DNA of 53,886 bases, taken from the NCBI GenBank assembly GCA_016179925.1, contig JACPCG010000097.1, positions 1-53,886 on the forward strand. The letters run 5' to 3'. Shown piece by piece: positions 1,611 through 53,606 of this stretch (position 1 is its first letter; every line of letters starts with the position of its first letter). The notes under the pieces were generated by a model that searched no databases, was not told the DNA's origin, and saw nothing but the letters and a program-made list of their open reading frames with translations. The DNA is from Candidatus Rokuibacteriota bacterium. GTDB lineage: Bacteria; Methylomirabilota; Methylomirabilia; Rokubacteriales; CSP1-6. The translations under genes were made by a program, and so were the position numbers.

Positions 1611-3016
1611 CCGAGCGGCGGACGGCGGGAGGCCCACGGGCGCGCGGCCTCGTAGGCCGCGGAGGCCTGGAGCACGGTGAGATCGGCGAACCGCCGGCCC
1701 ACGATCTGCAGGCCCACGGGCAACCCGCCGGGCGTGAATCCTGCGGGCACGGTCGCAGCGGGCTGGCCGGTGAAGTTGAACGGATAGCTGAACGAGGCCC
1801 AGCCGAGCCAGTCCCACGCGTGCTGCGGCCAGCCCTCGGGGTTCAGCCGCCCGACGGGGAGTGCCGCGACCGAGGTCGTCGGCGTCAGGAGGAGCGCGTA
1901 CTTCTCGAAGAGCGGCCGCACGCTGTCCCAAAAGGCGAACTTCCGCCCGCGCGCCTCGACGTAGTCCACGACGCTGTAGCGCAAGCCCTCCTCGATGCAG
2001 GCGACGAGCCCCGTGTCCATCCGGTCCCGCCACCGTGGGAGGTACTGGGCGTAGTTCCCGGCCTCGTGGGCGCTCCACATGCAGCGGATCAGGTCGTGCG
2101 AGTCGGCGAAGGCCGGCTTGACCTCCTCGACGGCGCAGCCCAGTTCGGCGAACGTGCGCGCAGCCTGCGTCACGACCGACGCCACCTCGGCGTCCACCCG
2201 AAGCCCGCCCAGGTCGGGGCTGAACGCCACCCTGAGCCCCGTGATCCCCTTGTCGAGCAGCCCGAGGTAGTCCTCCGGGGCGCGCTCGAGCGAGGTGCGG
2301 TCCCAGTCATCAGGGCCGGCCATCACGGCGAGCATCAGCGCCGCGTCGGCGACCGTCCGCGTCATCGGCCCAACGTGCGAGGTGTAGTCGCTGTTGGAAA
2401 CGGGCCACATCGGGACGCGGCCGTAGGTGGGCTTCAAGCCGTAGATGCCGCAGAACCCCGACGGGATGCGGATGGAGCCCGCGCCGTCGGAGCCTTGATG
2501 GAGCGGCCCGAGGCCGGCGGCCGCGCCGGCGCCGGCGCCCGCGCTCGAGCCGCCCGTGGTCATCCCGGTGTTCCAGGGATTGCGCGTGATGCCCGTCAGC
2601 GGGCTGTCGCCGATCGCCTTCCAGCCGAACTCGGGTGTCGTCGTCTTGCCGACCATGATGCCGCCGGCCGCGTGGAGACGCCGCACGAAGGGCGCGTCCA
2701 CCTCGGGCACGCGCTCGGCGAAGATGAACGACCCCGACATCGTCTTCACGCCCCGGGTGAAGTGGAGGTCCTTGATCGAAAACGGAATCCCGTGGAGCGG
2801 ACCCAGCGGCCCGCCTTGCATCACGGCCTGCTCGGCCGCGCGGGCCGCCTGGAGGGCGGCGTCCGACGTCAGCGTGCAGAAGGCGTTGACGACGGGATTG
2901 AGCCGCTCGATCCGCTCAAGCACCGCGCGCGTCAGCTCGACGGGCGAGAGCTGCTTCGCGCGGATCAGACGCGCGAGCTGCGTGGCCGGCGTGTAGCAGA
3001 GGTCCGTGGCGTTCAT
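1607..3016 (-). CDS. Amidase (amidase-signature family)
   Basis: A 469-residue serine amidase that hydrolyses carboxamides to acid and ammonia. The Ser-cisSer-Lys machinery is visible: Lys in FSIKDLHF near residue 85, the glycine/serine-rich [14 protein letters not shown] and the nucleophile segment GSDGAGSIRIP, followed by GLKPTYGRVP. The length is normal for the family. I start it at the ATG at 3016 because GGAGG lies about 5 nt upstream and the residues further upstream are low-complexity and unlike the family. It ends on a TAG inside the palindromic repeat. It follows the broken carbamoyltransferase on the same strand after 23 nt. The substrate is unknown. Confidence 0.9.
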   Translation of the reverse strand: MNATDLCYTPATQLARLIRAKQLSPVELTRAVLERIERLNPVVNAFCTLTSDAALQAARAAEQAVMQGGPLGPLHGIPFSIKDLHFTRGVKTMSGSFIFAERVPEVDAPFVRRLHAAGGIMVGKTTTPEFGWKAIGDSPLTGITRNPWNTGMTTGGSSAGAGAGAAAGLGPLHQGSDGAGSIRIPSGFCGIYGLKPTYGRVPMWPVSNSDYTSHVGPMTRTVADAALMLAVMAGPDDWDRTSLERAPEDYLGLLDKGITGLRVAFSPDLGGLRVDAEVASVVTQAARTFAELGCAVEEVKPAFADSHDLIRCMWSAHEAGNYAQYLPRWRDRMDTGLVACIEEGLRYSVVDYVEARGRKFAFWDSVRPLFEKYALLLTPTTSVAALPVGRLNPEGWPQHAWDWLGWASFSYPFNFTGQPAATVPAGFTPGGLPVGLQIVGRRFADLTVLQASAAYEAARPWASRRPPLG

Positions 3017-3039
3017 GACGTCCTCCGGTGCCTGGACGG

Positions 3040-3966
3040 CTACTTCTTCGAGATGAGGAAGCGACCGAGCGCCAGATGCTGGAGGCCGGAGCGCTCGAAG
3101 GTGTCCACCGCGTCCTGGGGCGAGCAGACGAGCGGCTCGCCGTGGAGGTTGAACGAGGTGTTCAGCACGGCGCCGATCCCCGTGCGCGACTCGAACTCGC
3201 GGATGACCCGGTGGTACGCCGGGTTCCACGCCTCGTCCACGATGTGGGCGCGCGCCGTCCCGTCGTGAGGGTGCACGGCGGCGACGATCTCGTCGCGCCG
3301 CTTCGGGTTCGTCGGGAAGGCGAGCATCATGTACGGCGAGGCAACCCCCTTCGGGTTCAGGAGGTAGTCGGCCTCGCGCTCCCGCAGCACGCTCGGCGCG
3401 AACGGCATCCAGAAATCGCGGTTCTTGATCATCCGGTTGATGAGCGGGACCACCCGGTGATCGGAGGGGTTCGCGAGGATCGAGCGGTTGCCGAGGGCGC
3501 GCGCGCCGAATTCCATCCGCCCCGCGCAGCGGGCGACGATACCGTCGGACACCAGTAGCTCGGCGATCTTCTCCTCGATCGCAGCGGGCTCGCTCACGCG
3601 GTGGCGCGCCGCGAGGTCGCGGGTGCGGATGACCGCCTCCACCTCGGCATCGTCGATCCCGGGCCCGAGGTACGCGGAGCCGAAGGGGCGCGGCGCCGGC
3701 GCGACACGCTGCCGGGCGCAGAGGTCAAGGTAGCCGAGGTAGGCTGCCCCGACGGCGTTGGACTCGTCGCCGCACGACGGAAAGACGAACAGCTCCCTCA
3801 CCCACTCTTCCTGGGCGAGGAGCATGTTCGCCTTCACGTTCATGAAGACGCCGCCGCCGAGCGCCAGGCGTTCAGCGCGGTAGCGCCCGCGCGCGAGGCG
3901 CGCCCACCCGAGGAGCCATTCCTCGAGGAGCCGCTGGGCGCCGCCGGCGATCCCGTCGAAGCGCAA
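3040..3966 (-). pseudogene. Carbamoyltransferase (NodU/CmcH family), C-terminal fragment
   Basis: The C-terminal half of the same gene as the fragment upstream, displaced by one reading frame. It includes the glycine-rich nucleotide-binding strand LALGGGVFMNVK, CGDESNAVGAAYLG, the RMEFGARALGNRSILA block and the terminal NTSFNLHGEPLV, all hallmarks of the carbamoyltransferase C-terminal domain. In the shifted frame the reading joins the N-terminal part near 3996, within 'SLGSL-YRALLEATLG'. The conserved family segment normally following that point (around KxMGLAxYG) is absent, so I infer a frameshift plus an internal deletion of several tens of residues. Confidence 0.75.
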
Positions 3967-4630: not shown

Positions 4631-4808
4631 TCAGACGGGCCGACGCGAACGGCCGGCCCGCGTTCGCCGTCTGACGCCGCCGTTCTCGGGAGAACTGACT
4701 CCAACACGGGCGCGGGCCGGGAGCGCGGTGCGGGGTCCGCCGGCCCGTCCCCGGCCCCCGATCGCGAGTCGACTAGCGTCCCGTCGCTGAAATCACGTCA
4801 AGTGGCCC

Positions 4809-4963
4809 CGGCGCCGACGGACGCGGGCGACAGGGGTCGCGGGACCCGTTCCCGCCCCGGGAGGGGCGGACCTGGCGCGCCCGGCTGGAGCCCAGCCGCA
4901 ACGCGGCAGCGGACGCGTGCCGCGTGGTCCCGCGACCCCTGTCGCCCGCGCCCGTCGGCGCCG
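4809..4963. repeat. Palindromic element, family 2, copy A
   Basis: A 155-bp imperfect palindrome. The left arm 4809-4846 and right arm 4926-4963 are inverted repeats over about 38 nt with essentially one mismatch, beginning CGGCGCCGACGG. The centre, read on the minus strand, has CGTTGCGGCTGGGCTCCAGCCG, an internal hairpin shared with copies at 19238-19394 and 43560-43716. It starts 36 nt downstream of the stop of the PfpI gene. The rest of the 4616-4999 gap shows no gene. Confidence 0.85.
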
Positions 4964-4999
4964 CCGCGCGCTCGCGAACATGAGTTCGCCGACGCGACG

Positions 5000-5524
5000 C
5001 TAGCCCTTGCCGAGGGCGGCGACGATCGCGCGGCAGAACGCCGGCAGGTCGTCCGGGCGGCGCGAGGTGATGAGGTTGCCGTCCACGACGACCTCCTCGT
5101 CCACCCAGTCGGCGCCGGCCGCGACGAGGTCGTCCTTGATCGAGAAGAAGGACGTCGCCCGCCGGCCCCTCAGCACGCCCGCGGACACGAGCATCCAGCC
5201 GGCGTGGCAGATCGCCGCGACCACCTTCCCCTGCTGAGCCGCCTCGCGCACCAGCTTCACCATCGGCGCGTGGCGCCGCATCATGTCGGGCGCGTAGCCG
5301 CCCGGCACGACCACGGCGTCGAACTCGACGGCGCTGACTTGGTCGGCCTGGACGTCCACGTTCACCGGGTAGCCGTGCTTGGACGTGTAGGACTTGGCGC
5401 CCCCCGCGCCGACCACCTTCACCTCGGCGCCCTCCTCCTTCAGCCGGTAGTAGGGCACCCAGAGCTCCATCTCCTGGTACATGTTCTCGGACAGGATCGC
5501 GATCCGCTTGCCGGCGAGCTTCAT
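5000..5524 (-). CDS. DJ-1/PfpI family protein (intracellular protease/deglycase-like)
   Basis: A 174-residue single-domain member of the DJ-1/PfpI superfamily. The nucleophile-elbow cysteine lies in VVAAICHAGWML near residue 106 with the adjacent His, as in PfpI and YhbO. The motif DAVVVPGGYAPDMMRR is the conserved loop containing the supporting residues. Characterised relatives are proteases or methylglyoxal-adduct deglycases, so a stress or protein-quality role is likely but not proven. The ATG at 5524 is preceded by GAGAGGAGA. It lies 11 nt downstream of the FmdB-like gene and probably shares its transcript. Confidence 0.88.
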   Translation of the reverse strand: MKLAGKRIAILSENMYQEMELWVPYYRLKEEGAEVKVVGAGGAKSYTSKHGYPVNVDVQADQVSAVEFDAVVVPGGYAPDMMRRHAPMVKLVREAAQQGKVVAAICHAGWMLVSAGVLRGRRATSFFSIKDDLVAAGADWVDEEVVVDGNLITSRRPDDLPAFCRAIVAALGKG

Positions 5525-5535
5525 CGGGTCTCCTC

Positions 5536-5700
5536 TCAGGACTTCTTCGACGTCTTGGAGTAGAACGTGCCCACGAGCGGGCGCATCTCCCGGTTGCCGC
5601 ACTTCGGACAGGCCGCCTCGCCCTTCTCGCGCTCGCGGATGGACAGGGTCATCGACACTTCCTTCTTGCACTTGTCGCAGTAGAACTCGTAGAGAGGCAT
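5536..5700 (-). CDS. FmdB-type zinc ribbon protein
   Basis: A 54-residue protein starting MPLYEFYCDKC, the standard opening of the FmdB putative regulatory/zinc-ribbon family. Two CxxC knuckles (CDKC near residue 8 and CPKC near residue 35) should bind one zinc. The start at 5700 is chosen because the family begins with MPxYEF and GGAGGAG lies just upstream; a longer frame is unlikely. It sits between the dehydrogenase and the PfpI-like gene on the same strand. Function in the family is unclear; it was named from the formamidase regulator FmdB. Confidence 0.85.
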   Translation of the reverse strand: MPLYEFYCDKCKKEVSMTLSIREREKGEAACPKCGNREMRPLVGTFYSKTSKKS

Positions 5701-16382: not shown

Positions 16383-17494
16383 TGGGAGCGCCCCTCCGCA
16401 TCCTCCAGGTCTATCCGAAGGACGACTACTTCACCGGCGCCGCGATCCAGCTGTGCGAGCTCGCGACGGGGCTGAAGGGCCGCGGCCACGAGGTCGTCGT
16501 CGCGACCCGCCCGAGTGAGACCTGGGCCGCGAGGATGCGCGAGGCGAGGATCCCCCACTATGCGCTGCCGATGAAGTCGGAAGTCGATCTCGCGTCGGTC
16601 AGGCGCCTCGTGCGGATCCTCAAGCGGCACCGGATCCAGGTGGTCCACGCCCAGAAGGGCAAGGCGCGCACGCTCGCGATGATCGCCGGGCTGGTCACGC
16701 GGATTCCCGTTCTCGTCCTCAACCGCGGCGTGAGCTTCCCGCTCGACCGGTTCAACCGCCTCGGCCACACCACGCGTCGCGTGACGGCGATCGTGGCCGT
16801 CTGCGAGTCGATCAAGCGCGGTCTCGTCGCCCAGGGGGTGCCGGCGGAGAAGATCCACGTCATCTACTCCGGGACCGACACCGACCGCTTCAACCCGCAG
16901 GCGGACGGCAGCGGGATCCGCCGGGAGCTCGGCCTCTCGCCCGATCACTTCCTCTTCACCCAGATCGGCGTGAGGAGCTGGCGGGGGAACGACGACACGA
17001 TCGACGCCTTGGCGCTCGTCGCGGCGCGGGCGCCGCAGGCGCGGCTGCTCATCGTCGGCGCGCGCGGCCCGCGGATCCTCTACGACCGGGCCCGGGCGCG
17101 CGGGATCGCGGACCGCGTCCACGTCCTCGGCTACCGGGAGGACATCCCGGAGATCCTCGCGGGCAGCGACTGCTGCGTGGACGCCTCGTACGCGGGGCTC
17201 GGCATCACGGGCATGCTCCGCGAGGCGCTCGCCGTCGAGACCGCGGTGGTCGCGAGCGACCTCGCGGGCAACCCGGAGCTGGTGATCGACGGCGAGACGG
17301 GCCTGCTCTTCCCGCCCCGTGACGTCCCGGCGCTCGCGCGCGCGATGCTCCGGATGGCGGACGAGGGCGCGTTCAGGGACGCGACGGCGCGCGCGGGGCG
17401 GAAGCTCGTGGAGGCGAGGTTCTCGACGCGCGCCAAGCTCGACGCGATCGAGGCCCTCTACCGGCGCCTGCTCGGCGCGGGGGGGTCCGCGTGA
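16382..17494 (+). CDS. Glycosyltransferase, GT4-like (GT-B fold)
   Basis: A 370-residue group 1 glycosyltransferase. The N-terminal Rossmann half begins LRILQVYPKDDYFTGAAIQLCELATGLKGRGHEV; the C-terminal nucleotide-sugar half has LLIVGARGP, VHVLGYREDIPEILAGSD and the EAL-containing GITGMLREALAVETAVVASDLAGNPELV near residues 277-304. It transfers a sugar from a nucleotide donor, probably on the cytoplasmic membrane during LPS or polysaccharide assembly. Its ATG overlaps the aminotransferase stop and its stop overlaps the exporter GTG, so translation is likely coupled through the operon. Confidence 0.9.
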   Translation: MGAPLRILQVYPKDDYFTGAAIQLCELATGLKGRGHEVVVATRPSETWAARMREARIPHYALPMKSEVDLASVRRLVRILKRHRIQVVHAQKGKARTLAMIAGLVTRIPVLVLNRGVSFPLDRFNRLGHTTRRVTAIVAVCESIKRGLVAQGVPAEKIHVIYSGTDTDRFNPQADGSGIRRELGLSPDHFLFTQIGVRSWRGNDDTIDALALVAARAPQARLLIVGARGPRILYDRARARGIADRVHVLGYREDIPEILAGSDCCVDASYAGLGITGMLREALAVETAVVASDLAGNPELVIDGETGLLFPPRDVPALARAMLRMADEGAFRDATARAGRKLVEARFSTRAKLDAIEALYRRLLGAGGSA

Positions 17495-19236
17495 TCCGCG
17501 CGCTCCCGCTCTACCGGCGCCTCCTCCCCTACCTGCGCCCGCACGTGCCCGTGCTCGTGCTCGGGGCGCTCCTCGCGCTCGTCGTCTCGGCGATGGAAGG
17601 CCTCACGGCGTGGCTCGTCAAGCCGGTGATGGACGACATCTTCATCCGGCGCGACCTGTTCATGCTCAAGGTGATCCCGCTCCTCCTGCTGGTGGCCTAC
17701 GTGGTCAAGGGCGCCGCGCGCTACGGCCAGTCCTACCTCATGGCCGCGGTCGGCGAGCGCGTGATCGCGGCGCTGCGGCGCACGCTCTACGTCCACCTCC
17801 AGCAGATGCCGCTCTCGTTCTTCACCGGACGCCATTCGGCCGACCTCATGTCCCGCGTGGTCACCGACGTGAACCGCCTGGCCCGTCTGTCGTCGACCGT
17901 CCTGGTGATGGCGATCCGCCAGATAGCGATGATCGTCGCGCTCGTCGCCGTGATGTTCGCGCGCGAGTGGCGCCTGGCGCTGATCGCGCTCGTCGTGTTC
18001 CCGCTGGTCGGCGTCGCGGTCCGGGCGATCGGCCGGCGGCTGTACAAGATCAACAAACGGGCGCAGCAGAAGATCGCGGAGCTGAACGTGCTCCTCCACG
18101 AGGCCTTCTCGGGCACGAAGATCGTCAAGGCGTTCGGCCGCGAGCCGCACGAGGTCGAGCGCTTCGACCGGGTCAACCGGCGGCTGCTCGCGCTCTCGCT
18201 CAAGGACCACCGCACCGACCAGCTCACCGAGCCGCTCATGGAGGTGCTCGCGGCGCTCGGCATCATGGGCGCGCTCTGGTACGGCGGCCACCGGGTCATC
18301 GCCGGCGCGATGACGCCGGGCGACTTCTTCTCGTTCATCGCGGCGGTCGCGCTGCTCTACGGCCCGGTCCGGCAGCTCTCACGGATCGCCAACACCGTCC
18401 AGCAGTCCACCTCGTCGGTCGAGCGCGTCTTCGAGATCGTCGACACGCCACCCGAGATCACCGACCGGCCCGGCGCCGTCGTGCTCGACGGCTTCCGCGA
18501 CGCGCTGGTCTTCGAGCACGTGAGCTTCCGCTACCCCGGGTCGGACGAGCCCACGCTCCGCGACATCTCGCTGACGGTCCCCAAGGGCGAGGTCGTGGCC
18601 TTCGTGGGGCTCTCCGGCGCGGGCAAGTCCACGCTGATGGACCTGGTGCCGCGCTTCCACGACGTGACCGCCGGACGCATCACGATCGACGGCCGCGACC
18701 TCCGCGACGTCACGCAGGCCTCGCTCCGCGCGCAGATCGGCGTCGTCACGCAGGGCACGTTCCTGTTCAGCGACACGGTCCGCTGCAACATCGCCTACGG
18801 CCGGCCCGACGCCTCGTTCGACGACGTCGTGCGCGCGGCCCGCCACGCCCACGCCCACGACTTCGTCATGGCGGGCCCCGACGGCTACGAGACGCTCGTG
18901 GGCGAGCGTGGCGTGCGGCTCTCGGGCGGCCAGCGGCAGCGCATCGCGATCGCCCGCGCCTTCCTCAAGGACCCGCCGATCCTCATCCTCGACGAGGCGA
19001 CCTCGGACCTCGACGCCGAGAGCGAGTTCATGGTCCACCAGGCGCTGGCGGATCTGATGCGGGGCCGGACGGTGCTCGTGATCGCCCACCGCCTGGCGAC
19101 CGTGAGGAGCGCCGAGCGCATCGTCGTCGTCCACGATGGGCGCATCGCGGAGGTCGGCCGTCACGACGAGCTGCTCGCGCGCGACGGCATCTACCGGCGC
19201 CTCTACGCGCTCCAGATGGAAGGCGTCGCGGGGTAG
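17491..19236 (+). CDS. msbA: MsbA-like ABC exporter (fused permease and ATPase)
   Basis: A 581-residue half-transporter. Six membrane helices occupy residues 20-300 (for example VPVLVLGALLALVVSAMEGLTAWLV), then the ATPase: Walker A GLSGAGKST near 374, signature LSGGQRQRIAIARA near 475, Walker B ILILDEATSDLD near 497 and H-loop IAHRLAT near 531. It resembles lipid A and glycolipid flippases, which work as homodimers in the inner membrane. It is the last gene of the glycoconjugate operon; a repeat of family 2 begins 1-2 nt after its TAG. The symbol is by similarity; the cargo could be another lipid-linked sugar. Confidence 0.88.
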   Translation: MIRALPLYRRLLPYLRPHVPVLVLGALLALVVSAMEGLTAWLVKPVMDDIFIRRDLFMLKVIPLLLLVAYVVKGAARYGQSYLMAAVGERVIAALRRTLYVHLQQMPLSFFTGRHSADLMSRVVTDVNRLARLSSTVLVMAIRQIAMIVALVAVMFAREWRLALIALVVFPLVGVAVRAIGRRLYKINKRAQQKIAELNVLLHEAFSGTKIVKAFGREPHEVERFDRVNRRLLALSLKDHRTDQLTEPLMEVLAALGIMGALWYGGHRVIAGAMTPGDFFSFIAAVALLYGPVRQLSRIANTVQQSTSSVERVFEIVDTPPEITDRPGAVVLDGFRDALVFEHVSFRYPGSDEPTLRDISLTVPKGEVVAFVGLSGAGKSTLMDLVPRFHDVTAGRITIDGRDLRDVTQASLRAQIGVVTQGTFLFSDTVRCNIAYGRPDASFDDVVRAARHAHAHDFVMAGPDGYETLVGERGVRLSGGQRQRIAIARAFLKDPPILILDEATSDLDAESEFMVHQALADLMRGRTVLVIAHRLATVRSAERIVVVHDGRIAEVGRHDELLARDGIYRRLYALQMEGVAG

Positions 19237-19237
19237 C

Positions 19238-19394
19238 CGGGGCCGACGGACAGGGGCGGCAGGGGTCGCGGGACCACGCGGCACACGTCCGCTACCCCGT
19301 TGCGGCTGGGCTCCAGCCGGGCACGCTCCGTCCGCTTTCCCGTGGGAGGGAACGGGCTCCCGCGACCCCTGCCACCCCTGTCCGTCGGCCCCGC
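19238..19394. repeat. Palindromic element, family 2, copy B
   Basis: A palindrome of about 157 bp starting directly after the exporter stop codon. Its arms begin GGGGCCGACGGACAGGGG and pair with the right end at about 19358-19394. The central hairpin CGGCTGG-GCT-CCAGCCG lies at 19303-19319 on the plus strand. The arm bases differ from copy A, yet they remain complementary to each other. Confidence 0.85.
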
Positions 19395-24855: not shown

Positions 24856-26376
24856 ATGATGAAGCGCTGGTTTCTCCCGATCGTCCTCCTCGCGGTCCTC
24901 CTTGCGACCGTCGCGCAGTCGGGCGCCCAGCCCAAGGACACGCTGGTCGTAGCGCTCGTGTCGCACGCGCCGGTGCTCGACCCGCACTTCCACTTCGAGC
25001 GGGTGGGCATCCTCGTCAACATCAACATGTTCGACTCGCTCCTGCACAAGAACACCAAGCTCGAGTACGAACCGTCCCTCGCGACCTCGTGGAAGCCGCT
25101 GAGCGACACCCAGTGGGAGTTCAAGCTCCGCCGGGGCGTGAAGTTCCACAACGGCGAGACGATGACCGCGGAGGACGTCAAGTACTCGTTCGAGCGCGTG
25201 CTGGACCAGAAGAAGAAGTCGCCGCAGTTCGGCAACATCCGCGCCATCAAGGAAGTCCGGATCGTCAGTCCGGACACGATCCACATCGTGACCGACAAGC
25301 CGTTTCCGCTGCTCCTCGAGCGCCTCGTCTTCTTCCCCATCGTCCCCAAGAAGCACGTCGAAGCCGTCGGCGACCAGGCGTTCGGCCTCAGCGCGCCCGT
25401 GGGGACGGGGCCGTGGAAGTTCGTCGAGTGGAAGAAGGACCAGCTCATCCGGCTCGAGGCCTTCGACCAGCACTGGCGCGGCAAGCCCGCCTTCACGCAT
25501 CTGGTGATCCGGGCCATCCCCGAGATCGCGACCCAGATCGCCGAGCTGAAGACTGGCGGGGTCGACCTGATCCGCAACGTGTCCGCCGACCTCGTGCCCG
25601 AGCTGAAGGCGCATCCCCAGACGTACGTCAGCTCGGCGCCGATCCTCCGCACCCACTACGTCCATCTCGACATGCGGACGGAGCCGTTCAACAAGAAGCT
25701 GGTGCGGCAGGCCGCGAACTACGCCATCGACCGCGAGGCGATCGTCCAGAAGATGATGGCGGGGCTCGGCCGGGTCGTGCCCACCGTCGTGCATCCGGCC
25801 GCCTTCGGCTACGACCCCTCCGTCACGGCCTATCCCTTCGACCCGAAGAAGGCCAAGGAGCTCCTCGCGCGGGCCGGCTATCCCAACGGGGTGGACATCA
25901 CGCTGCACAGCGCCTTCGTCGAGTTCCGCCCCGTCTTCGAGGCGATCGGCCAGATGCTGACGGAGGTGGGCATCCGCACCACGACGAAGATGTGGGATCC
26001 GGGCCCGGCCTGGAACAAGTTCTTCCAGACCGAGGGCAAGGCGACCCACGGCTACTACGGGAGCTGGGGGTACTACTCAGTCTTCGACGCCGAGGCCATC
26101 CTGCACCCGCTGTATCACACCGAGCCCGGGGGCTGGGTCGGCAGGCACTACATCCGCGTGGAAGGGCTCGACGCGCTCATCGACCAGGGCAAGTCGACGG
26201 TGGACCAGGCCGCGCGCAAGCGCACCTATTCCCAGATCCTGCGCCTCCTGAAGGAGGAGGCGCCGAGCGTCTACCTCTTCCATCAGTTCGACACGCTGGG
26301 GATCTCGAAGAAGGTCGAGTACGCGGCGCGCGGCGACGAGTGGCTGTGGCTCTTCGACGGCAAGCCGAAGCGCTAG
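24856..26376 (+). CDS. ABC transporter substrate-binding protein (peptide/nickel family 5)
   Basis: A 506-residue exported solute-binding protein. A signal peptide (MKRWFLPIVLLAVLLATVAQSGAQ) precedes the family 5 domain: ATSWKPLSDTQWEFKLRRGVKFHNGETMTAEDVKYSFERV is the classic signature, and PVGTGPWKFVEWKKDQLIRLEAFDQHWRGKPAF follows near residue 190. Family members bind oligopeptides, nickel, glutathione or other small molecules. GAAGGAGG lies 5 nt upstream of tandem ATG codons. Two permeases follow, but no ATPase genes, so these must be elsewhere. Its TAG stop is inside copy 2 of the family 1 repeat. Confidence 0.92.
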   Translation: MMKRWFLPIVLLAVLLATVAQSGAQPKDTLVVALVSHAPVLDPHFHFERVGILVNINMFDSLLHKNTKLEYEPSLATSWKPLSDTQWEFKLRRGVKFHNGETMTAEDVKYSFERVLDQKKKSPQFGNIRAIKEVRIVSPDTIHIVTDKPFPLLLERLVFFPIVPKKHVEAVGDQAFGLSAPVGTGPWKFVEWKKDQLIRLEAFDQHWRGKPAFTHLVIRAIPEIATQIAELKTGGVDLIRNVSADLVPELKAHPQTYVSSAPILRTHYVHLDMRTEPFNKKLVRQAANYAIDREAIVQKMMAGLGRVVPTVVHPAAFGYDPSVTAYPFDPKKAKELLARAGYPNGVDITLHSAFVEFRPVFEAIGQMLTEVGIRTTTKMWDPGPAWNKFFQTEGKATHGYYGSWGYYSVFDAEAILHPLYHTEPGGWVGRHYIRVEGLDALIDQGKSTVDQAARKRTYSQILRLLKEEAPSVYLFHQFDTLGISKKVEYAARGDEWLWLFDGKPKR

Positions 26377-26503
26377 CAGGCTGCTGAAAAAAGCCCATCT
26401 GCTGCGTTGGCGCCCTCGGTCGCACGCTCAACGTACAGGAGAGTACGCATCGCGTGCGCCCATCGGGCGCCGCCTTGCATCTGGACCTTTTTGAGCAGCC
26501 TGC
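26373..26503. repeat. Palindromic repeat, family 1, copy 2
   Basis: Starts with the same CTAGCAGGCTGCTGA as copy 1 and supplies the TAG (26374-26376) of the substrate-binding protein. It ends with GAGCAGCCTGC at 26493-26503. Over its length it is highly similar to 1459-1588, including CGTTGGCGCCCTCGG and CGCTCAACGTACAGG, and the left and right 35-nt arms are inverted repeats. It lies within an operon, between the binding protein and permease genes. The second terminal repeat seen in copy 1 is missing. Confidence 0.85.
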
Positions 26504-26554
26504 AAGTCTCAGGACCGGAGGTCCCCGGGACCGCTCGCCCGTGAGCGCGCTGCC

Positions 26555-41374: not shown

Positions 41375-41375
<1 letters not shown>
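40893..41375 (-). CDS. ureE: Urease accessory protein UreE (nickel metallochaperone)
   Basis: A 160-residue UreE: N-terminal peptide-binding domain with LTAEERRWGRRRVTTRAGRTLALALPTGSVLTPGEIL, then the metal-binding domain with EVGNRHFTLALDGDRLLVPDDPAMDQLLTRLG (nickel-binding His in GNRHF near residue 113). The C-terminus is short with a few His (GHRHDH) rather than a long His tail. It delivers nickel to UreG. The start overlaps the ureC stop (TGATG). Confidence 0.88.
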
Positions 41376-43089
<1,714 letters not shown>

Positions 43090-43093
<4 letters not shown>

Positions 43094-43440
43094 GACCGCC
43101 GCTCCCACTCGGCGAGCTTCGCGAGGGCCTGCGCCTTCGTGCCGCCCTGGCTCAACGCGTTCAGGCCGTAGATCGTCCGCGCGCCCGCGAGCTCGACGAG
43201 CGTGACGCGCTTGGCGTCGCCGGGCTCGAAGCGCACCGCGGTGCCCGCCGGCACGTTGAGGCGCATCCCGAACGCCTGCGCCCGATCGAAGCGGAGCGCC
43301 CGGTTCACTTCGAAAAAGTGGAAGTGGGAACCGACCTGGATAGGCCGGTCGCCCGTATTCGCCACGCTCAGCTCGACCGTCCTGCGCCCCGCGTTGGCCA
43401 CGATGTCGCCCTCGCCCAGAAGATACTCGCCGGGAATCAC
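43090..43440 (-). CDS. ureB: Urease subunit beta
   Basis: A 116-residue Ure[75 protein letters not shown], the canonical beta-barrel subunit. I start at GTG 43440, preceded by GGAGG at a good distance and matching the family N-terminus; longer in-frame starts run through the repeat element. The stop overlaps ureC. It is separated from ureA by a palindromic repeat of about 157 bp, which is unusual in urease operons. Confidence 0.93.
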
Positions 43441-43502: not shown

Positions 43503-43559
43503 CGCGCCTCAGCGTCCCATCGCCGGAATCATGTGGAGACCCCGCGTGCATGCGGGCCC

Positions 43560-43716
43560 CGGGGCCGACGGGCGCGTGTCGAGAGGGGGCGTGGGAACCC
43601 GTTCCCTCCACGGGGCAGCGGACCGAGCGCCTCCGGATGGAGCCCAGCCGCAACGGGGCAGCGCACGCCTGCCGCGTGGTCCCACGCTCCTTCTCGACAC
43701 GCGCCCGTCGGCCCCG
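43560..43716. repeat. Palindromic element, family 2, copy C, inside the urease operon
   Basis: A 157-bp palindrome with 37-nt arms (43560-43596 and 43680-43716, two mismatches) beginning CGGGGCCGACGGGCGCG. The centre read on the minus strand has CGTTGCGGCTGGGCTCCATCC, the same core as copies A and B. It starts 12 nt after the ureA stop and lies upstream of ureB, so the transcript of the operon would contain it as a large hairpin. Confidence 0.85.
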
Positions 43717-43728
43717 TCCGGCAAGACA

Positions 43729-44031
43729 CTAGCGGATCGGGTGGTGGATCGTGACGAGCTTGGTGCCGTCGGGGAACGTCCCCTCCACCTGCACCTCGTC
43801 GATCATCTCGGGCACGCCGTCCATCACGTCGTCGCGGCCCAGGATCGAGAGGCCCGACGCCATCAGCTCCGAGACGGTCCGTCCGTCGCGGATGCCCTCG
43901 AGGATCTCGGCCGTGATGAGCGCGAGCGCTTCGGGGTGGTTGAGCCTGAGCCCGCGCGCCCGGCGGCGGCGCGCCACCTCGGCGGCGGTGAAGATCAGGA
44001 GCTTCTCCTGCTCCCGAGGAGTGAGGTGCAT
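43729..44031 (-). CDS. ureA: Urease subunit gamma
   Basis: A 100-residue UreA with the family sequence [46 protein letters not shown] and the C-terminal [18 protein letters not shown]. It forms the trimer interface with UreB and UreC. It starts 18 nt after urtE, showing that transporter and enzyme are one transcription unit. GGAGG precedes the ATG. Confidence 0.95.
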
Positions 44032-52054: not shown

Positions 52055-52088
52055 GCGGCCTCCCCCTCCCGGCGCACCCACTCGCCGG

Positions 52089-52147
52089 GGTGAGGCATGA
52101 CCGGTCCCGCCGACGGCGGACGGCGGCGGGACCGGTCATGCCTCACC
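52089..52147. terminator. Long perfect palindrome between amt and glnA
   Basis: Two 24-nt arms (52089-52112 and 52124-52147) are exact inverted repeats around an 11-nt centre. It starts 4 nt downstream of the amt stop. RNA from either strand would form a very stable hairpin; there is no T-run. It probably insulates glnA from the amt transcript. Confidence 0.7.
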
Positions 52148-52151
52148 CGGG

Positions 52152-53606
52152 CTAGTGGGCGGTGCGCGCCCTGGCCTCGGCGAACGCTCCGCTGCCCCCG
52201 CCCGCCGTGAACTCGCCGTACCCGCCGCCGGCGGCGTACGCCGTCTCGGAGTGCTGCGAGAGATCGAGTCCCGCCACCTCCTCCTCTTCGGTCACGCGGA
52301 GGCCGACGAGCGCGTCCACGACCTTGAGGATGACGGCGGTCCCCACGACCGCCAGCGCGTACGTCGCCAGGATCGCGACGATCTGCGTCCAGAGCTGGCC
52401 CGGGTTGCCGAAGAAGAGCCCGTCGGCGCCCGCCTCGTTGACCGCCTTGGAGGCGAAGAGCCCGGTGGCGAACGCGCCCCAGGTCCCGCCGACCGCGTGC
52501 ACGCCGACGACGTCGAGCGAGTCGTCGTAGCCGAGCTTCGACTTGAGGTTGCACGCCGCGTAGCAGAGCGCCCCCGCCACGGCGCCGATGATGAGGGACG
52601 ACATCGGCCCGACGTAGCCGGAGGCCGGCGTGATCGCGACGAGCCCCGCGACGGCGCCCGACGCGGCGCCGAGCACGGTGGGCTTCCCCCGGCTCATCCA
52701 CTCGGTGAACATCCACCCGAGCGCCGCGGCGGCCGCGCCCGTGTTCGTCGCCACGAACGCGCTGGCCGCGAGGCCGCTGGCCTCGAGCGCGCTGCCCGCG
52801 TTGAACCCGAACCAGCCGACCCAGAGGAGCGCCGAGCCCATCACGGTCATCGGCAGGTTGTGCGGCTGCATCGGCTGGTGGCCGAAGCCCTTGCGCTTGC
52901 CGATCATGACGGCGCAGACGAGCGCCGACACGCCCGAGGAGATGTGCACGACCGTCCCGCCCGCGAAGTCGAGCGCGCCGAGCTTCTTGAGCCAGCCGCC
53001 GTCGCCCCAGACCCAGTGGGCGAGCGGGTCGTAGACGAGCGTCGCCCAGAGGACGGTGAAGAGGAGAAACGCCGAGAACTTCTTGCGCTCGGCGAATGCC
53101 CCCGTGATGAGCGCCGGCGTGATGATCGCGAACATCATCTGGAAGAGCATGAAGACCTGGTGCGGGATCGTCTTGGAATAGGCATCGAACGGCTCCACCC
53201 CGACACCCCGGAGTCCGATCCACTCCAGTCCGCCGACGATGCCGCCTTTGTCAGGGCCGAACGCCAGGCTGTAGCCCCAGAGGACCCACTGGATCGAGAT
53301 GACCGCCGCGATGATGAAGCTCTGCATCAGCGTCCCGAGGGCGTTCTTCTGACGCACCATCCCGCCGTAGAAGAGCGCGAGCCCCGGGGCGGTCATCAGG
53401 AGCACCAGCGCAGAGGAGGTCAGCATCCACGCCGTGTCGCCCTTGTCGATCTTCGAGGCCGGAGCCGGCGCGACGGCGGCCGCCGGGGCGGGAGCGGCCG
53501 CGGGCGCGGCCGGCGCCGCGGGGGCCGCCGGCTGCTGAGCGTGCGCCGCGAGCACGGTGGCGCCCAGCACCAGCACCATTGCCAGCGCGAGACTGAATCG
53601 CTTCAC
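52152..53606 (-). CDS. amt: Ammonium transporter
   Basis: A 484-residue Amt/MEP channel. A signal peptide ([23 protein letters not shown]) and an Ala/Pro-rich linker precede eleven membrane segments. Family motifs: [29 protein letters not shown] near residue 57, [20 protein letters not shown] near 212 (pore His), [11 protein letters not shown] near 258 and [21 protein letters not shown] near 366 (second pore His). The cytoplasmic C-tail ([20 protein letters not shown]) is the PII-binding region. It lies 31 nt after glnK on the same strand. Confidence 0.95.

Follow-up and report, generated by a model that had tools for sequence, protein, structure and literature searches.

Covarying stems are commonly accepted as proof of a selected RNA, and a 53,886-nucleotide stretch of the Candidatus Rokuibacteriota contig JACPCG010000097.1 (hereafter the window) raises the question of whether such a reading holds for a dispersed palindrome whose arms differ from copy to copy while remaining complementary within each. 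A preliminary description had noted three such palindromes in the window, just beyond stop codons, and had attributed them to selection on, or repeated regeneration of, a folded structure at gene 3' ends. The host is an uncultured soil bacterium, and all genomes considered here are draft short-read MAG assemblies.

Three palindromes and their relatives

The three palindromes have the coordinates, the core and the GCCGACGG ends first reported for them, and the arms of each copy are indeed complementary, by 90-97% over 38-42 nt (38 nt, 97%; 41 nt, 93%; 42 nt, 90%). Copy A (4809-4963, minus strand) consists of arms at 4809-4846 and 4926-4963, 97% complementary, that flank the conserved core, and it lies 36 nt beyond the stop codon of a DJ-1/PfpI family gene (5000-5671, minus strand). 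Copy B (19238-19394, plus strand) is found immediately 3' of the stop codon (19234-19236) of a gene for an MsbA-like ABC transporter (17491-19236, plus strand), at a distance of 1 nt; this gene served for the orthologous-site test described below. Copy C (43560-43716, minus strand) sits between ureA (urease gamma, 43729-44031) and ureB (urease beta, 43090-43440), both on the minus strand, 12 nt from the stop codon of the former. No T-run follows the stem in any of the three window copies.

With copy A as the query, blastn locates the element at about 41 sites in a genome of 3.57 Mb; a covariance model trained on 41 copies brings the number to about 70, which is far above chance and bears out the earlier expectation of tens of copies. 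With the same model, 16 of the 36 genomes of the family are positive, the element's own genome counted, and none of 24 genomes outside the family has a copy. When 84,980 genomes were searched for exact matches to the core, at least 92 stretches were returned, of which 90, among the matches listed, are from Candidatus Rokubacteria; pattern matches in Mycobacterium and Bordetella are probably due to chance, the former having no covariance-model match and the latter a 30-nt partial one (E = 0.05). The viral contigs searched contained no copy, and in Rfam the copies match no family at either threshold used, the gathering threshold not being reached. Counts of gene context and covariation rest on 210 copies from 15 genomes.

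The window holds other structures of this general kind. Another palindromic repeat (CTAGCAGGCTGCTGAAAAAGG...CTTTTTGAGCAGCCTGC), also dispersed, occurs at 1459-1592 and 26373-26507, in copies 94% identical, and likewise begins at a CTAG that contains the upstream gene's stop codon. A nearly perfect inverted repeat with 39-nt arms and a 5-nt loop occupies 52077-52159. Finally, positions 42643-42940 (plus strand) match Rfam RF02514 (5' ureB sRNA) with 60.2 bits and run antisense to a large gene (41375-43108) that adjoins ureB; this match may be a mere reflection of conserved coding sequence.

Element ends, partner insertion sequences and the CTAG target

The preliminary description missed that the palindrome sits inside a longer element whose terminal repeats end in CTAG. 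Conservation of the flanks continues beyond the palindrome to a CTAG on both sides, and 20 complete elements measure 222-285 bp, with CTAG or CTAA at both ends. Copy A in full spans 4773-5003 (minus strand; 231 bp, CTAG to CTAG, with IS630-type ends), and the TAG stop of its DJ-1/PfpI neighbour lies within the CTAG at 5000-5003. Copy C probably extends over 43509-43732 (minus strand); at one end the CTAG (43729-43732) is the ureA stop codon and the tip is partly lost, and at the other there is a degenerate tip near 43509. Copy B, like many copies in relatives, has no recognisable terminal repeats or insertion sequence (IS) ends.

The ends fall into two families, type I (CTAGTGTCGCGTCTGCGAAATCATGTTAAC...) and type II (CTAGCCTGGACTATTCATGAACG...), and the same conserved core of about 80 nt is found inside both. 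In two hybrids (L031 and L032:8552) the outer arms are of type II and the inner stem and core of type I, with the same arrangement on either side, and coreless short derivatives are also present. Each end family has an autonomous counterpart in a relative. Type I ends match an IS630-family element of 1144 bp (genome G075, C11, 23450-24593) at 28 of 30 tip bases, and its transposase scores 247.9 bits against the IS630-family model NF033545 (cut-off 100). Type II ends match an IS1380-family element of 1692 bp (genome G018, C91, 10868-12559), whose transposase scores 361.9 bits against NF033539 (cut-off 180). IS870/IS5, considered as a CTAG-targeting partner, was dropped because these elements with matching ends were found. 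IS630 is said, after work by Tenzen and Ohtsubo in 1991, to prefer the TA in CTAG. The element's own genome, 81% complete, yielded no IS630 transposase at E <= 1e-20 and no IS1380 transposase at 1e-30, so present-day mobility is only putative.

In several relatives the joined flanks are contiguous at CTAG, as seen for the insertions at msrP-msrQ, E2-lpd, infB-DUF503 and proB-proA (gene names read from the sequences), and many insertions are species-specific. Short length, high copy number, terminal inverted repeats shared with insertion sequences, target duplication and empty sites, all of them seen here, are together the features by which MITEs are recognised. Rearranged forms also occur: at L084 a type I element beginning at about 1496 has an apparent coding-sequence fragment in place of the core, and at L029 two copies, one of type II and one of type I, adjoin in opposite orientation (2762-2919 and 3001-3156). 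Genome G077 has 61 type II (IS1380-like) tips, the highest number among the genomes searched.

The anticipated bias to gene 3' ends is pronounced. By our own codon-usage gene caller, a non-standard annotation, 61 of the 210 copies are flanked by convergent genes and 4 by divergent genes. CTAG itself is depleted seven-fold in the 406 kb of the genome counted (151 observed, 1066 expected), and 74 of the remaining 151 are called stop codons. The 3'-end position therefore arises largely because the CTAG target is rare except at stop codons and because elements are absent at promoters. In the three window copies the core always faces the same way relative to the upstream gene, as had been reported, but this does not extend to the genomes as a whole, where tandem genes have 70 copies in sense and 39 in antisense orientation (p = 0.004). 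The sense bias is clearest in the element's own genome (31:14); orientation is biased, not fixed.

Arm changes and core inversion at orthologous sites

Mutual information across the 210 copies places all top-scoring pairs on one stem register, and arms pair at 92% within a copy as against 79% with the arms of other copies from the same genome. The strongest evidence comes from orthologous sites, where orthology means matching flanks, at some sites a single flank only. Across 15 orthologous pairs of the same orientation we counted 60 two-sided changes that preserve pairing, seven times higher than under a null of independent placement (8.4 +/- 2.7, maximum 19 in 2000 draws); the changes are partly clustered and the events undated. 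For example, between L287 in genome G014 and L263 in genome G079 there are five arm changes, and all five are two-sided. Matched arm changes so far above the null at orthologous sites establish that the covariation first seen among three copies is genuine. The window copies take part in this pattern. The site of copy B is also occupied in G014, G024, G003 and G079, copy C has an ortholog in G079 (L262) in the same orientation, and orthologs of copies B and C in other genera have different yet complementary arms. At the 3' end of this transporter gene in one further genome (L161, G032), a different long hairpin (GAGCTGCGCCGGGGGCCGCGGGCACCGTG stem, other loop) stands where relatives carry the element.

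At three orthologous sites the core is flipped relative to outer parts whose direction is unchanged, and in 4 of the 18 classifiable copies of the element's own genome it is reversed relative to the element tips. Mutual information over the 210 copies detects no covariation inside the core. Its positions are unequal in rate: 43 of them, picked on copies that were not part of the test, differ between orthologs at 5.3%, and the other 37 at 24.9%. The simplest reading of the slow positions is constraint on the core, which may be functional, although conversion between copies in the same genome could contribute to its conservation. Since covariation is absent, the constraint is on sequence and not on a detectable fold. 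Folding predicts three hairpins within the core, and no covariation backs them.

Mismatches in the stem were read on the gene-sense strand. There, A.C mismatches outnumber G.U ones in the element's own genome (54 versus 24), in other genomes (149 versus 47) and at 22 of 27 positions, the genome counts including shared ancestry. With hot columns left out, the A.C excess is significant only for sense-tandem copies among the classified contexts, and for this reason it was not relied on as a sign of an opposite-strand RNA. Given the shared ancestry and the hot-column result, these counts support only the absence of a G.U excess.

We consider it probable that the palindromes belong to a MITE family of the IS630/IS1380 type in which recopying in place keeps the arms matched, rather than being a demonstrated RNA. 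The preference follows from the inverted cores, the merely biased orientation (70:39), the lack of a G.U excess and the lack of covariation in the core. Of the two origins that had been put forward for the fold, repeated regeneration accordingly fits better than selection on a gene-sense RNA, although selection on a hairpin or on the core keeps some plausibility, given the constrained core positions. Under the MITE reading, transposases acting in trans would insert elements at CTAG, and as CTAG is rare except at TAG stops, insertions would fall at gene 3' ends. The CTAG bias is observed directly; insertions at promoters would presumably be lost. The interior is a stem of about 38 bp around the conserved core of about 80 nt, and one arm would be recopied from the other in place, so that stem complementarity persists, a proposed mechanism for the co-change that we observe. 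The most likely route would be that the inverted repeats undergo template switching or conversion as the DNA replicates, a process that might also flip the core occasionally; recombination between the arms would look alike. Arm recopying would give covariation without a selected RNA, and the conserved core positions might contribute to mobility or serve some host function. Against this reading stand the moderate sense preference, the absence of the transposases from the genome as recovered, the slow core positions, the copies that have no recognisable IS ends and the far shorter spacers of the published template-switch cases.

Competing readings and known elements

A bolder possibility, which we advance only tentatively, is that the core is itself a functional cassette, a selected, invertible hairpin that has entered MITEs belonging to two unrelated transposase families and acts, as DNA or RNA and in either orientation, at gene 3' ends in Rokubacteria. 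Somewhat more doubtful still is selection for a hairpin or cruciform in the DNA to which a protein responds, whether a transposase, a recombinase or a host factor, so that pairing and core are kept in either core direction. Pairing maintained without G.U preference, a conserved core of free orientation and the presence of that core within both IS630- and IS1380-ended elements are what such recognition would lead one to expect, but there is no candidate protein, and arm recopying by itself accounts for the pairing.

Selection for a folded gene-sense RNA at 3' ends, as a 3' UTR structure, a terminator or a stability element, appears unlikely. Strong stem covariation with compensation in place would suit it, as would the location between convergent genes, the mild sense bias and the constrained core positions. 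Such selection, however, predicts more G.U than A.C on the gene-sense strand, the reverse of what is found; it also has to contend with cores inverted at orthologous sites, an unfixed orientation and stems that come without core covariation, a T-run in the window copies or an Rfam match.

We give little credence to the idea that these are ordinary decaying MITEs whose complementary arm differences are inherited subfamilies with no maintenance in place. Two end families, hybrids, coreless derivatives and many species-specific insertions are all consistent with it, but orthologs in sister species carry matched arm changes far beyond the null, as at L287 and L263, and already contradict it unless elements reinserted independently at the orthologous sites. 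The slow core positions likewise argue against plain decay of a dead element. An assembly artefact, in which fold-back of palindromes by the assembler makes arms seem perfect, is scarcely credible as a general cause, since 15 genomes show the pattern in copies that retain mismatches, have arms particular to their species and are correctly flanked at either end, even if fold-back is probable for one palindrome in G014 (L120), which reaches into a gene and, beyond that, an N gap.

Among known elements, a close parallel is RUP of Streptococcus pneumoniae, a 107-bp repeat mobilised by IS630-Spn1 (PMC2229807). Like RUP, the Rokubacteria element is small, repeated and mostly intergenic, with IS630-type ends and a TA-containing target; unlike it, the element has a long co-evolving stem and a conserved core, and that core also occurs between IS1380-family ends. 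The Rickettsia palindromic elements are dispersed and form long stem-loops at 105-146 bp (PMC2229807), but their sequence differs, whereas the Rokubacteria element is CTAG-targeted and linked to known IS ends. REP and BIME elements with RAYT transposases (PMC3733652, PMC2817692) are likewise dispersed extragenic palindromes. REPs, however, are palindromes of 20-40 bp with a GTAG or CGTC tag, whereas the present elements are 222-285 bp long, have CTAG-ended terminal repeats and do not fit that short, tagged form.

For the stem, a close precedent is template switching between inverted repeats, which is reported to homogenise arms and invert spacers (PMC8604942) and to yield compensatory changes and loop inversions, with a proposed part in the origin and upkeep of RNA hairpins (PMC8794818). 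Arm homogenisation and inversion of the spacer or loop are both seen in the Rokubacteria element. The published spacers are a few bp long, whereas here a conserved spacer of about 75 nt lies between arms of about 38 bp, and the Rokubacteria element is dispersed, bacterial and compared across many copies at orthologous sites.

These findings bear on three points. First, a family of more than 200 copies, which includes orthologous sites and cores inverted in place, offers a gauge for how much covariation arm-to-arm copying alone would produce in bacteria. Second, one conserved hairpin core is common to elements with IS630-family and IS1380-family ends. Finally, the near-absence of CTAG elsewhere in the genome accounts for the position of these elements on stop codons.
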